Below, piece by piece: positions 2,433-38,975 of a stretch of 42,169 bases of DNA (positions are counted from its first letter, which is position 1; every line of letters starts with the position of its first letter). The DNA comes from Paludibacteraceae bacterium (GTDB lineage: Bacteria; Bacteroidota; Bacteroidia; Bacteroidales; Paludibacteraceae), in contig JAFVDD010000028.1 of NCBI GenBank assembly GCA_017478725.1, positions 1 to 42,169 of the forward strand, given 5' to 3'. The notes under the pieces are model-generated. The model saw only the letters and a program-made list of their open reading frames with translations. It was not told the DNA's origin and made no database searches. A program made the translations under genes and the position numbers.

Positions 2433-2517
2433 GAAAAATCAAACGAGCCGAAGCCCGTCTGATTTGAACTATCCGATGTTTGTAGTAAGTTCGTTCAAGT
2501 GACGTTATAGTTGACTG

Positions 2518-2605
2518 TCGGCTCACCGTCGGCTGACCGTCGGGGAACAATCGAAAAACCACCAAAAAACCACCGAAAAGCCACCAAAAAACTGCCAAAA
2601 AGCAT
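2518..2605. repeat. 11-nt-period repeat array A (8 units, degenerate)
   Basis: Forward-strand units start at 2518, 2529, 2540, 2551, 2562, 2573, 2584 and 2595, exactly 11 nt apart. They read TCGGCTCACCG, TCGGCTGACCG, TCGGGGAACAA, TCGAAAAACCA, CCAAAAAACCA, CCGAAAAGCCA, CCAAAAAACTG and CCAAAAAGCAT. The array fills the gap between the esterase stump and the stop codon of the mutT-type gene. The phase is kept although base composition shifts from GC-rich to A-rich. Confidence 0.8.
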
Positions 2606-21579: not shown

Positions 21580-22074
21580 TTACTCCACGCCATGAGTTAA
21601 ATCATGGTAGGCGTGCAGCGACAAGTTGTCGCTCACATATTTCAGGCTGTGCAATTTGCTGAAGCCCAAAGCGGCAATGAACGCCAGCTCCATGTCAAAC
21701 ACACAGTCTTTATAATCCGATTGCAGCACGAAATCGCAGTTGGTATAGCATACCGCCTGAACAGCACCTGTCATTCTGCCCTGTATCGCCAGCTGCGGCT
21801 CCGGGTAGGTTACGTTCGGATGGTTGAGTCTCGCTTCTGTCACTTCGACCCACGTACCGATATCGAAATTGGCACTGCCGGCATAACCGATGTTCAGTAC
21901 CTCGGCTTCACGGGACAGGTTCTGCAGCGAACGGATGATATTGATTCCTCCGACACCCGTGTAAATGACTTTTGCTGCACGCCATTGTTCGCGTGCAGGC
22001 TCCTCCATTAGCGCCAGAGCCTTTTCTACCAGCTCGCGCTCGCCTTCTTCGGCTTGAATAATGTATCTCTCCAT
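21580..22074 (-). CDS. Nucleosidase/phosphorylase-superfamily protein (MTA/SAH nucleosidase-like)
   Basis: 164 residues from ATG 22072-22074; the upstream frame lies within the promoter. It has the PNP_UDP_1 fold: VIYTGVGGINI near residue 32, VLNIGYAGS near 54, VFDMELAFIAA near 124 (the Met-Glu that contacts ribose) and LKYVSDNLS near 145 (the Asp that protonates the base). MTA/SAH nucleosidases are about 230 residues, so this is a short form. The substrate (methylthioadenosine, S-adenosylhomocysteine or a futalosine type) cannot be settled from sequence. The neighbouring SAM-dependent methyltransferase makes an SAH-recycling role attractive, but this is inference. Confidence 0.8.
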   Translation of the reverse strand: MERYIIQAEEGERELVEKALALMEEPAREQWRAAKVIYTGVGGINIIRSLQNLSREAEVLNIGYAGSANFDIGTWVEVTEARLNHPNVTYPEPQLAIQGRMTGAVQAVCYTNCDFVLQSDYKDCVFDMELAFIAALGFSKLHSLKYVSDNLSLHAYHDLTHGVE

Positions 22075-22122: not shown

Positions 22123-22180
22123 GCAAATGAGGTATAATTCGCTATCCTATCCCAATTTTTGTATTTTTCAAAATCACGGG

Positions 22181-22206
22181 ATATATATTATATATATAAT
22201 ATATAT
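22181..22206. repeat. 26-bp perfect A/T palindrome
   Basis: Thirteen-base arms (ATATATATTATAT and its complement) meet without a loop. It lies in the 359-bp divergent gap 22075-22433, upstream of array B. Confidence 0.85.
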
Positions 22207-22221
22207 AGGGTGGGGTATGAT

Positions 22222-22298
22222 ACGATATTCACCCGATAAAACCCCGATGCGCTCCCGATGCGCTCCCGATAACCCCCCGATGCAGTCCCGATGCGAGT
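22222..22298. repeat. 11-nt-period repeat array B (7 units)
   Basis: Anchors ACGA/CCGA start at 22222, 22233, 22244, 22255, 22266, 22277 and 22288, all exactly 11 nt apart. On the reverse strand the units read TCGGGACTGCA, TCGGGGGGTTA, TCGGGAGCGCA (twice), TCGGGGTTTTA and TCGGGTGAATA, then a partial TCGTA. A G-rich tract follows at 22299-22314. No promoter of the usual type is visible between the array and the next gene. Confidence 0.9.
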
Positions 22299-22433
22299 GG
22301 GGAGGGGGGGGCGGCGCATGCGAATAAGGTTTCCGGCAGAACGGCAAGGCATAAGTCTCCTATTTGTGCTGTTTTGGGGAAACAGGTGTTTTGGCACGGT
22401 CTTTGTGGCAAAAGAGTCGTGAAAAATCGACTT

Positions 22434-23744
22434 ATGCATCATCGTTTCCTGATAATAGCCTTGCTGTTGCTGGCGCAGTTGCCAATAGGGGCGAAAAAGA
22501 AAGTGCGCGTGCCGGATTCGTTGCAGGTGATCACCGTAACGGCGAACGGTGTGGAATTGCGTATGCAGCGCGTGGAGGGCGGTTCGTTCGTCATGGGCGC
22601 AACGCCTGAACAATACGACCGCGACACCTATACCGACAAACCGGCTCACCTGGTATTTGTTTCGCCTTATTATATCGCTACGACCGAAGTTACGAACCGC
22701 CTCTGGCAGGCTGTTATGCCGGAGCGTGAGATGCTGGGGCCTTCGGGTTATCCGATGCATCCCGTATCGTTTGTGAGTTGGACAGATGCACAAGAGTTCG
22801 TACGACGGCTGGACAGTTTGACGGGTTATCCTTTCCGCCTGCCGACAGAGGCGGAGTGGGAGTACGCGGCGAGGGGTGGCGAACGGAGCAAGAACTATCG
22901 TTTCTCAGGCGGGCACGAAGCAGACAGTGTAGGGTGGCTGTACCCCTTGGCAGGTCAGTGGACTCATCCGGTGGGGCGCAAACATCCGAATGAATTGGGG
23001 CTGTATGACATGACGGGCAATGTGGCGGAGTGGTGCCAGGATCTGTATGGTCCGTACCAACTGAGTACGGAGCCTGACCCATGCGGCGCTGATACGGGTT
23101 CACTGCGTATCGTGCGCGGCGGCAGTTATGACCAGGTGAAAGCCAACAGCCATCTGTCCGTGAGGAAATGGTATCCGCCGGAGACGTCAGCCGGATATAT
23201 CGGTCTGCGTGTGGCGTTCTCGCTTCCCGATGACCCGATGCGTCAGGAGCCGCCGGAGGAACCGGAGCTGACACAGGATATCCGCCTGAAGGGCAGGAAA
23301 CTGCATTTCTCATTAGTGGCGGGCGACGAACCCTATTATCTCTCCGATGAAATCACGGCAGCGCACTGGAAAAAAATCATGAGCCTCTCAGCTCCTGATG
23401 AAGAGGACGGCGTGGCGATCGGTATGAGCCGTCCGGAACGCGAGCGTTTTGCCGAGACATGCAGCCGTCTGGCAGAGAGACCGATGGCCGTTGCGTCTGC
23501 CGGCGAGGTGAAGAAGGCTCTGGAACAGGGAGTGATAGCACCTCGTCCGGAGAAAAAGAGCAAGAAATCCGTCCGTGCGACCCAGCGCAGCCGCAAAACA
23601 CGCGACCAACTCTCGCCGTGGGCAGAAATGGTAGGCGCCAAACTGTCCAAACCGGATGATCCGATACTATTACAGTACAAGTCGGTAGCCGAGGATAACC
23701 GTCCGTTACGGCTTGTGATGAGGATTAAAGGGCGGCAGTTATAG
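22434..23744 (+). CDS. Secreted FGE-sulfatase-fold (SUMF1-like) protein with basic C-terminal extension
   Basis: 436 residues from ATG 22434, chosen because a signal peptide follows directly (MHHRFLIIALLLLAQLPIGA). Residues 30-270 match the formylglycine-generating-enzyme fold: MQRVEGGSFVMGAT, TTEVTNRLWQAVM, HPVSFVSWTDAQEFVRRL, PFRLPTEAEWEYAARGG, GLYDMTGNVAEWCQDLYG, RIVRGGSYDQ and GLRVAF. The catalytic cysteine pair of true FGE is absent after RGGSY, as in structural relatives such as GldJ/GldK of gliding and type IX secretion. No lipobox is seen. Residues 275-436 form a charged extension with a basic patch (EKKSKKSVRATQRSRK). Function unknown; a T9SS link is only suggested by fold and by the PorZ-like gene in the window. 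Confidence 0.8.
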   Translation: MHHRFLIIALLLLAQLPIGAKKKVRVPDSLQVITVTANGVELRMQRVEGGSFVMGATPEQYDRDTYTDKPAHLVFVSPYYIATTEVTNRLWQAVMPEREMLGPSGYPMHPVSFVSWTDAQEFVRRLDSLTGYPFRLPTEAEWEYAARGGERSKNYRFSGGHEADSVGWLYPLAGQWTHPVGRKHPNELGLYDMTGNVAEWCQDLYGPYQLSTEPDPCGADTGSLRIVRGGSYDQVKANSHLSVRKWYPPETSAGYIGLRVAFSLPDDPMRQEPPEEPELTQDIRLKGRKLHFSLVAGDEPYYLSDEITAAHWKKIMSLSAPDEEDGVAIGMSRPERERFAETCSRLAERPMAVASAGEVKKALEQGVIAPRPEKKSKKSVRATQRSRKTRDQLSPWAEMVGAKLSKPDDPILLQYKSVAEDNRPLRLVMRIKGRQL

Positions 23745-25498: not shown

Positions 25499-26512
25499 TT
25501 ATTTGACCGCTTTGCCAGTGATAGTATAAGTCTTATCCTCGCTCAGTATATACATGTTTCCATCTTTAATCAGTTTCTGCGCTGGGTTGGTGGGGGTGGT
25601 ATATACGGAAGGTGCAGAGGAAGGAATGTCTGGAGTTTCTTTAGAAATATCAATGCCCACGATATTGGTAAAGTCCTTCCAAACACTCGTTGTGCTATAA
25701 GCATCGACACTTTCTGTAGGGACATAAAGTGTGCAAGCAGATTTGTCCACCGCGAGGTTTACTGCGTTTCCTCCAAAGACATTACTATCTATCCCTTGTG
25801 GTATAATAGTATTATTGGTTATTGAGGCCAAACTGCTGCAACCCTCGAAAGCACGTTCGCCTATGCTTGTGATGTTACTAGGAATCTCTATTGAAGTCAA
25901 ATAGCTACAGTCCTGAAAAGCTGAAACACCAATGCTTGTGACACTGTTGGGAATATCAATAGAAATCAAACTGGCGCAACCATGGAAAACAAAATTTCCA
26001 ATGGCTGTGACCCTGTTTGGTATCTCAATGGAGATAAAACTGCTGCAATTCTGAAAAGCCCCATCTCCAATGCTCGTTACGCTATCCGGAATAACTACAG
26101 AGGTCAAACTCCTGCAGCCTGCGAAAACATTCTTTCCAAGAAAGTTGACACTATTAGGAATAGTCACAGAGGTCAAACGATAGCAATCAGAGAAAGCCCA
26201 TTCTCCAATGCTTGTGACGCTATTAGGAATTGTCACAAAGGTCAAACGGTTGCAATCGGCAAAAGCATAATTCCCAATGCTTGTGAGACCATCGGGTAGA
26301 GAGAGATAAACGATATAGGAGCGATAATCGTACCATGGAGCAGAGCGATAACTCGTGTTTGCCATAGCTCCGCTACCGGTGATGATGAGTGTACTGTCTT
26401 CCGTATTCAATGACCAAGTGAGGAGGTCGAAGCATTCACCCTTAAAGACTTCCGCTTGTGTAAAGTTTGCGCTGATTGCCAACGCAAAAAAGAAAGTAAA
26501 GGATTTACGCAT
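25499..26512 (-). CDS. BspA-like leucine-rich-repeat surface protein
   Basis: 337 residues from ATG 26510-26512, where a signal peptide begins (MRKSFTFFFALAISANFTQA). About seven LRR_5 repeats of 23 residues span residues 65-255, each of the form LTSVTIPNSVTSIGEWAFSDC. Such Treponema/Bacteroides BspA-type repeats mediate binding to host or bacterial surfaces. A proline/serine-rich linker leads to a short tail (LIKDGNMYILSEDKTYTITG) of a kind that often ends Bacteroidales BspA-like proteins and may serve as an export or anchoring signal. The gene is convergent with sufB. The repeats are high in DNA identity, so copy number may vary between strains. Confidence 0.85.
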   Translation of the reverse strand: MRKSFTFFFALAISANFTQAEVFKGECFDLLTWSLNTEDSTLIITGSGAMANTSYRSAPWYDYRSYIVYLSLPDGLTSIGNYAFADCNRLTFVTIPNSVTSIGEWAFSDCYRLTSVTIPNSVNFLGKNVFAGCRSLTSVVIPDSVTSIGDGAFQNCSSFISIEIPNRVTAIGNFVFHGCASLISIDIPNSVTSIGVSAFQDCSYLTSIEIPSNITSIGERAFEGCSSLASITNNTIIPQGIDSNVFGGNAVNLAVDKSACTLYVPTESVDAYSTTSVWKDFTNIVGIDISKETPDIPSSAPSVYTTPTNPAQKLIKDGNMYILSEDKTYTITGKAVK

Positions 26513-30583: not shown

Positions 30584-30671
30584 CCGACTTACCTCCGACT
30601 CACCTCCGACTTACCTCCGACTTGCCTCCGACTTACCTCCGATAAAACCCCGATGCAGTCCCGAGTCATAT
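30584..30671. repeat. 11-nt-period repeat array C (8 units)
   Basis: CCGA starts at 30584, 30595, 30606, 30617, 30628, 30639, 30650 and 30661, all 11 nt apart. Reverse-strand units are TCGGGACTGCA, TCGGGGTTTTA, TCGGAGGTAAG (three times), TCGGAGGCAAG, TCGGAGGTGAG and TCGGGGCGTCA. The first two are identical to units of array B. It lies between the DUF6242 gene stop and pgk. Confidence 0.93.
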
Positions 30672-36329: not shown

Positions 36330-36336
36330 GAGGAAA

Positions 36337-36371
36337 TTGAAAGTTGAAAGTTGAAAATTGAAAATTGAAAG
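36337..36371. repeat. 7-bp tandem repeat (5 units) between xseA and the HhH gene
   Basis: TTGAAAG, TTGAAAG, TTGAAAA, TTGAAAA, TTGAAAG head to tail in the 57-bp gap. Confidence 0.9.
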
Positions 36372-36386
36372 TTAATCGGAGATACT

Positions 36387-38932: not shown

Positions 38933-38940
38933 CGGATATC

Positions 38941-38975
38941 CTTTCACCTCTCACCTTTCACTTTTCACTTTTCAT
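38941..38975. repeat. 7-bp tandem repeat (5 units) at the rpe stop
   Basis: CTTTCAC, CTCTCAC, CTTTCAC, TTTTCAC and TTTTCAT head to tail. On the coding strand they encode the last residues of Rpe and continue past its stop toward comEC. Confidence 0.9.

Follow-up and report, generated by a model that had tools for sequence, protein, structure and literature searches.

An array of 11-nt units in a rumen Paludibacteraceae genome belongs to a dispersed intergenic element with a conserved head

Here, we present an analysis of array B, a tandem array of 11-nt units in a 42,169-nt stretch of DNA (contig JAFVDD010000028.1; the window) from G000, a rumen Paludibacteraceae MAG of 2.16 Mb in 60 contigs that is 84% complete. 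We found that array B forms the tail of an intergenic element with dispersed copies, in which a conserved head with an AT palindrome is followed by the 11-nt units. The elements form a family that is spread over the genus; they keep the 11-nt phase, their anchors resemble each other more within a genome than across genomes, and in G000 the anchor is close to perfect. We suggest, as a tentative reading held with somewhat less than even confidence, that the element is MITE-like and that a trans-acting DNA-binding protein, a reader that we infer, maintains its anchors. That the genomes of the genus have array words of their own that make up an 11-nt code with a co-evolving trans-acting reader or writer is, in our view, unlikely.

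An earlier note on the window described seven TCGG anchors at 11-nt intervals at 22222-22298 and two further arrays (A and C) of the same kind. The strict 11-nt phase and the intergenic position held, and the signal is far above chance: three CCGA anchors at 11-nt steps with at most one mismatch matched 13 times in the window vs. 0.19 expected, and 0 of 100 shuffles gave 13. In array B, the anchor reads CCGA on the + strand and TCGG on the − strand. Six of the seven anchors are exact; the seventh, at 22222, is ACGA and part of the conserved head (Table 1), and among the matches listed, a similar first unit follows other heads, too. In array A, the period is kept throughout; however, the anchor is exact in three units only, and 2544-2605 lacks CCGA. 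Accordingly, the 23 anchored units counted over the three arrays come down to 17 exact anchors (six, three, and eight in arrays B, A, and C). The alpha head lies upstream of the predicted start of the left neighbor gene. Ahead of the gene at 22434, a TTGGCAC-N5-TTTGT motif at 22391-22406 is presumably a sigma-54-like promoter; by eye, a motif like it lies upstream of seven of eight genes related to this gene. The window also contains period-7 tandem arrays at 36333-36373 and 38940-38974 and a 69-bp tandem duplication with an 83% match at 26146-26286; in sequence from the genus, the commonest non-codon tandem period is 7, followed by 8 and 11. The sole match in an Rfam search at the gathering threshold was a tRNA.

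Table 1. Coordinates of array B, its head, its neighbor genes, and arrays A and C in the window
Feature	Position	Strand	Basis
Conserved head alpha, full-length match to model R1 (1-55, E 1.5e-10)	22170..22231	+	
AT palindrome inside head, arms covary between copies	22181..22206	.	Self-complement match
Degenerate first unit ACGATATTCAC, overlaps head, in array phase	22222..22232	+	Sequence
Array B proper, six 11-nt units with exact CCGA	22233..22298	+	Pattern scan
Array C, eight units with exact CCGA; no upstream alpha head seen	30584..30671	+	Pattern scan, flank alignment
Array A core, three exact CCGA units, CCGACGGTCA type (zeta)	2511..2543	-	Pattern scan
In-phase 11-nt units beside array A, without CCGA anchor	2544..2605	-	Period scan
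Left neighbor gene, no NCBIfam/Pfam family at E 0.001	21580..22074	-	
Right neighbor gene, GldK/EgtB-like	22434..23744	+	NCBIfam matches below curated cut-offs

The excess extends over the genome. In G000, the pattern of four CCGA anchors spaced by 11 nt has 125 matches (64 forward and 61 reverse), and the control, the backwards pattern, has 0; this bears out the excess for which the earlier note had proposed a scan, and the arrays are not confined to the three loci of the window. In 442 kb of unselected G000 sequence, CCGA ranks 1st of 256 tetramers for same-strand 11-nt spacing (86 pairs vs. a background of 11.4), with peaks at 11, 22, 33, and 44 and none at 10 or 32; at lag 21, its spacing count is no higher than at other multiples of 3. 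Because the peaks fall on multiples of 11 and are lacking at 10 and 32, the spectrum fits neighbor-to-neighbor binding better than one flat DNA face. The proposal of one anchor per helical turn along one face holds only approximately: eight units span 88 bp and eight turns of B-DNA about 84 bp. A chance origin of the arrays is ruled out by the counts of 125 vs. 0 and 13 vs. 0.19 together with the rank of CCGA, a codon artifact by the period of 11 and the location of the arrays outside predicted genes, and a three-locus curiosity by the matches across G000. By pattern search, some CCGA array is present in 46 of 61 genomes of the genus sample and in 19 of 295 genomes of the order sample; in the genus, the control also matched in a few genomes (e.g., 14 matches vs. 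five for the control in G048). Two arrays (L122:17414-17490 and L184:2532-2630) have a 22-bp higher-order unit. In the literature, no report on 11-bp arrays in Paludibacteraceae was found among the titles and opening abstract lines listed, which took in few subscription papers.

In the alpha order, the head AAAATCACGGG is followed by the AT palindrome, GGTATGATACGATATTCAC, and then the array. Mean column identity over 25 aligned heads is 79%. A perfect palindrome is present in 108 of 108 heads, with arms of 7-13 (median 8) and 40 distinct palindromes, vs. a median arm of 4 and a 95th percentile of 6 in the shuffled control. In register, 100% of 184 cells pair; seven of eight pairs are invariant, and one is changed on both sides in seven sequences. 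The structure line of model R1 is one column out of register (13.6% of cells paired), and the model therefore acts mainly as a sequence model. Using R1 with the stricter filters of Infernal, we found the alpha head in 24 of the 61 genus genomes, with up to 22 matches (in G000), and among 198 genomes across the order in G000 only. Thus, sparse CCGA arrays are more widespread than the alpha head. The list of 80 head loci includes a few doubtful ones (e.g., L238 and L250), and the tail comparisons below used tighter rules (108 head loci, 106 after duplicate removal).

Other ends accompany other arrays: the beta module is a tail, TCTCTCTCGATAGTGTCTCGCCAGTCTGATTT; gamma is a looser 3′ end after CCGATAAC; delta is a direct repeat, AAATCTTAATAATCG, that flanks the array on both sides; and zeta comprises the CCGACGGTCA arrays, the type of array A. 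The zeta arrays CCGACGGTCAG at L015 and L011 in G000 share the end GTATAGTATCAC(T/G)TGGGGAATCATACCACAAG. We collected 68 arrays and removed one at a stretch end; among the remaining 67, our own rules recognized alpha in 11 and no end in 20, and the ends occur in varying combinations. In one element of G015 (L260), alpha, array, and beta occur together, bounded by AAATCA on one side and TGATTT on the other. Carriage by phage is weighed against by the viral contigs, in which one exact 17-base head pattern had 0 matches. Similarly, a REP element with a RAYT is not supported, as the Y1 transposase (PF01797) had no match in the five head-carrying genomes searched (G000, G001, G002, G006, and G015, with 22, 8, 16, 11, and 9 heads, respectively).

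The claim that the arrays lie only between genes holds nearly everywhere. In unselected stretches, 21 of 21 arrays overlap no predicted gene (one further array at an edge was dropped), in agreement with the proposed intergenic enrichment; in stretches mostly picked for arrays, 28 of 32 rows are gene-free, three lie wholly inside a predicted ORF, and one overlaps by 7 bp; two of the 32 rows (L175 and L184) are a second phase of an array already in the set. Genes were predicted with our own script, which gave a coding fraction of 0.89 of bases. The arrays occupy 12 codirectional, 6 divergent, and 3 convergent gaps vs. 74, 30, and 13 background gaps of ≥100 bp, and in codirectional gaps the CCGA strand runs with the genes in 13 cases and against them in 15 (51 rows counted); higher-order arrays and last units are excluded from the context counts, as from the anchor-break counts below. 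The contexts thus track the background of intergenic gaps, and the orientation relative to genes that was looked for is not conserved. Nor did a co-occurring protein emerge among 97 flanking genes: their products include no multi-copy family, and a few pairs share 26-39% identity. Among 19 neighbor genes scanned with Pfam, the matches are ordinary (including Cpn10, NqrA, PPDK-like, AraC-type, OmpH, YbeY, SprT-like, ExbB, and PdxJ), the remainder are without a family match, and no transposase or binding protein was found.

In G000, anchors are almost never broken, and the seven bases between them vary, as the earlier note described for array B. In TRF arrays, the calling of which ignores the anchor, CCGA is in phase in 15 of 19 usable G000 arrays (four of 23 with fewer than four mismatches were left out); in these 15, the mismatch between neighboring units is 0-5% at CCGA vs. 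23-42% at the other seven positions. In the anchored set of G000, the anchor is broken in three of 180 internal units vs. 29-37% in a simple neutral simulation, which treats units as independent under the same detection rule and ignores duplication history. The listed G000 arrays have three to eight exact-anchor units each. The contrast is weak in seven CCGA arrays of other genus genomes, in which the mismatch is 8-21% at the anchor vs. 4-46% elsewhere. When 40 arrays from the other genomes of the genus are taken together, mismatches in the best 4-base block number 34 vs. 51 expected, and only two of the 40 individually reach p 0.05.

Behind the alpha heads, the tails match themselves at lag 11 with 0.67 in G000 (21 loci) and 0.48 elsewhere (87 loci), compared with 0.17-0.31 in G000 and 0.23-0.27 in other genomes at lags other than 11 and 22. 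Units 2-3 are more similar within genomes (0.58, or 0.49 without G000) than between them (0.39), a difference that 0 of 2000 label permutations reached; for the anchors the values are 0.78 vs. 0.54 and for the spacers 0.49 vs. 0.33. Unit 2 also resembles unit 1 of its own locus (0.456 vs. 0.411 expected, 0 of 1000). The commonest anchor in units 2 and 3 is CCCGA in G000 (31 of 42) and TAGGA in G006 (12 of 18). Elsewhere, the words are CTCGG (6 of 22) and CCTTA (5 of 22) in G002, CTCGA (4 of 12) in G015, CCTTA (3 of 12) and CTTTA (2 of 12) in G030, and ACCGA (4 of 8) and CTCGA (3 of 8) in G036; CCCGA is commonest or tied also in G001 (5 of 10), G007 (4 of 14), and G044 (4 of 20), and G002, G003, G017, and G059 have no single dominant anchor. 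The pattern therefore amounts to a bias by genome that is strong in G000 and G006, the other genomes being mixed, and the differing commonest words rule out one anchor for the whole genus. Arrays of three TAGGA anchors were found in G006 alone among 14 genomes searched; the backwards control matched eight times in G006 because AGGAT is contained in TAGGAT units, and the four TAGGA loci inspected have no head within 200 bases upstream.

Orthologous loci allow the head and tail to be followed separately. The head lies beside one small gene at the same place in G000, G003, G042, and two named records (L041 and L081), between uvrB and rplS in G006, G015, G044, G030, and G037, and between infC and rpmI in G002, G015, G034, and G030 (gene names by NCBIfam). 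In G000, the uvrB-rplS gap (L113) instead holds an array with delta repeats on both sides in place of the alpha type, and the infC-rpmI gap on contig C30 an array with beta and without alpha. Over seven orthologous sets, the similarity of units 2-3 is 0.27-0.45 in five, close to the between-genome value of 0.39, and 0.77 and 1.0 in two. In the sister pair G015/G030, the flanks of which are about 90-91% identical, a single base of 44 separates the two infC-rpmI heads and units 2-3 match with 0.32; for uvrB-rplS, the heads have 5 differences in 49 bases and the units match with 0.50, one G030 unit beginning with CTCGA, the G015 word. The tails do not differ at L316/L369, the third locus compared. 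The earlier note envisaged strain-to-strain turnover; the turnover seen here is between species, the level at which genomes were compared.

At the L259 locus, the element is present in G015 and missing from five genomes in which both flanks aligned; in G034, a head would not fit into the 39 bases between the flanks. We saw no clean target duplication at this locus, where 16-45 bases stand in other genomes. In the orthologous gap of G030 (L395) and G037 (L390), period-8 repeats of different sequence were seen by eye. A 54-bp array is identical at L130:10533-10587 and L180:2112-2166, with different flanks and with edges near the array ends. The lineage-specific presence together with this array common to two loci suggests that the elements are mobile. 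At the locus of array B, inspection by eye of ~330 bp upstream revealed no head in seven relatives of the left gene or eight matches of the right gene (one of them a G000 paralogue, L211); in G036 (L342), a head lies beside a gene that is 72% like the right gene and may be a paralogue. Among 34 head-adjacent gene ends of relatives with an orthologue in the G000 sequence examined, an array lies no more than 600 bp away in 21; in unselected stretches, this holds for 11 of 22 such gene ends (12 distinct gaps, four with an array) vs. 44 of 684 gene ends in the background.

Based on GyrB, G000 is near rumen Paludibacteraceae MAGs (top amino acid identity 97%). G000 has two infC-rpmI loci, on contigs C10 (L357) and C30 (L175), which are 75-85% identical; by the longest match, C10 is nearer to G034 (85% over 1127 bases) than to C30. 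At least one of these two contigs is probably from another species, and because the MAG is incomplete and the infC-rpmI loci are on both contigs, some G000 contigs may be foreign.

In our reading, array B is the tail of a small dispersed element that is MITE-like in its anatomy of head, AT palindrome, and direct 11-nt units, and we propose that a trans-acting DNA-binding protein would read the anchors head to tail in 11-bp steps. The reader could be a host factor or an enzyme that moves or copies the elements. Head-to-tail binding every 11 bp would account for the retention of the anchor, and not of the spacers, in G000: the anchors would be kept because the protein reads them, and the spacers would drift and in part be copied from the adjacent unit of their own locus. 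The arrays of one genome may be homogenized by inter-locus copying together with the shared reader, such that the anchor tends to change from genome to genome and the head and the beat persist. However, anchors might also become genome-specific with no reader at all, by copying from a lineage master, because the head ends are also partly genome-specific (the last 16 nt of the head are 0.82 alike within genomes and 0.69 between). In its broader form, this alternative holds that the arrays are neutral or selfish minisatellites, made and homogenized by slippage and inter-locus copying in the absence of a reading protein; we consider it possible, though not probable. The gap types that track the background, the richness of the genus in period-7, 8, and 11 arrays with unrelated units, the movement of array blocks between loci, as for the 54-bp array with different flanks, and the partly genome-specific heads all accord with such an origin. 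On the other hand, neutral divergence as fast as that of the spacers would leave about one-third of the internal anchors broken rather than the three of 180 seen, with the reservation that the simulation ignores duplication history. Similarly, CCGA is common to G000 families with unrelated ends, although these arrays were gathered by a CCGA search; the tetramer ranking, made without an anchor search, is fairer evidence.

Should the arrays instead be subterminal binding repeats of a mobilizing transposase, turnover of the enzyme between lineages would alter the anchor. The modular ends, the dispersal, the lineage-specific presence at L259, and the architecture of L260, with head, array, conserved tail, and AAATCA/TGATTT ends, agree with this idea; however, no transposase is found among the 19 neighbors, no neighbor is multi-copy, the one family searched (Y1) has no match in G000, and L259 lacks a clean target duplication, and we regard this explanation as quite unlikely. 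By analogy with ArcA sites, which have 11-bp spacing (PMC3798270), the arrays could be long direct-repeat sites of an OmpR/PhoB-type response regulator that controls a host regulon. G000 encodes two DNA-binding domains of this type (on C31 and C16), and some element positions are common to several species. Nevertheless, convergent gaps contain arrays as well, both orientations occur, the head adjoins functionally unrelated genes, and the anchor can differ between sister species, faster than expected of a global regulator; we therefore judge a regulon to be very unlikely. Rho sites consist of pyrimidine-C dimers about every 11 nt on a transcript, and the CCGA strand has more C than G. That the arrays are Rho utilization sites in RNA is nonetheless hardly credible, given that many G007 and G036 units end in GG and that the 13/15 split of the CCGA strand in codirectional gaps weighs against Rho sites and terminators alike. 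Finally, a dedicated enzyme might write the arrays: with a genome-specific template, it would renew the tail at every head and so change the anchors of many sites simultaneously. The conserved head and changed tail at two orthologous G015/G030 loci and the genome-biased anchors with locally copied spacers would be expected of such a writer; ordinary gene conversion could give the same outcome, however, and at the third G015/G030 locus the tail is unchanged, leaving dedicated writing highly improbable.

Were the anchor kept by a protein, the specificity of many DNA sites and of their reader would have changed in concert within one bacterial genus, and the orthologous loci would offer a built-in comparison of a conserved head with a changing tail. 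If no protein is involved, the arrays would be a clear and measurable case of fast concerted evolution of bacterial minisatellites. Either way, they may serve as strain markers in rumen metagenomes.

The statement of the earlier note that no named family has such properties was too strong, as ArcA sites, the R1 ParR system, and BrickBuilt, as far as the accessible parts of their descriptions go, share features with the arrays. TAACTGA heptamer repeats are intergenic and occur in Beggiatoaceae, cyanobacteria, and some Bacteroidetes (PMC4679880). Like these, the arrays here are intergenic short direct repeats of a fixed word, with Bacteroidetes among the hosts; the TAACTGA repeats, however, are 7-mers that in Beggiatoaceae lie mostly just upstream of start codons, and the available text describes no head element. 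ParR of plasmid R1 binds the ~11-bp direct repeats of parC cooperatively, with the DNA wrapped on the protein (PMC9426499, PMC5016525). Unlike parC, which is described as a plasmid centromere beside the par genes, the arrays are scattered over many contigs; of models for an R1-type RHH centromere protein, the one searched, RHH_1 (PF01402), had no match in G000 at its 84% completeness. ArcA sites are direct repeats with 11-bp center spacing, three to five of them in 92 of 158 sites (PMC3798270; see also PMC4832192 for direct-repeat sites of the OmpR/PhoB family). The arrays share this spacing and the direct orientation; in contrast to ArcA sites, for which one regulator is known, they have no preference for promoters or gene contexts, and their anchor tends to vary by genome.

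By comparison of the descriptions, the closest known kind is the BrickBuilt type of leader-minisatellite-tail element. Porphyromonas gingivalis, the host of BrickBuilt, belongs to the same order as the host genome here. BrickBuilt is an intergenic MITE of restricted host range with a 23-nt unit that has conserved and non-conserved sites and with IS5-like terminal inverted repeats of 12 nt; of its 19 copies, 11 have both ends, three the leader only, two the tail only, and three neither (PMC4596501). Terminal repeats in the complete element L260, a single copy, are limited to AAATCA/TGATTT. The unit of 11 nt sets the present elements apart by description from BrickBuilt, with its 23 nt and its longer leader and tail, as do the genome-specific anchors, which the accessible account of BrickBuilt does not mention. 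As in BrickBuilt, a leader and a tail flank a tandem array, some copies are without one or both ends, and the elements are intergenic and multi-copy.
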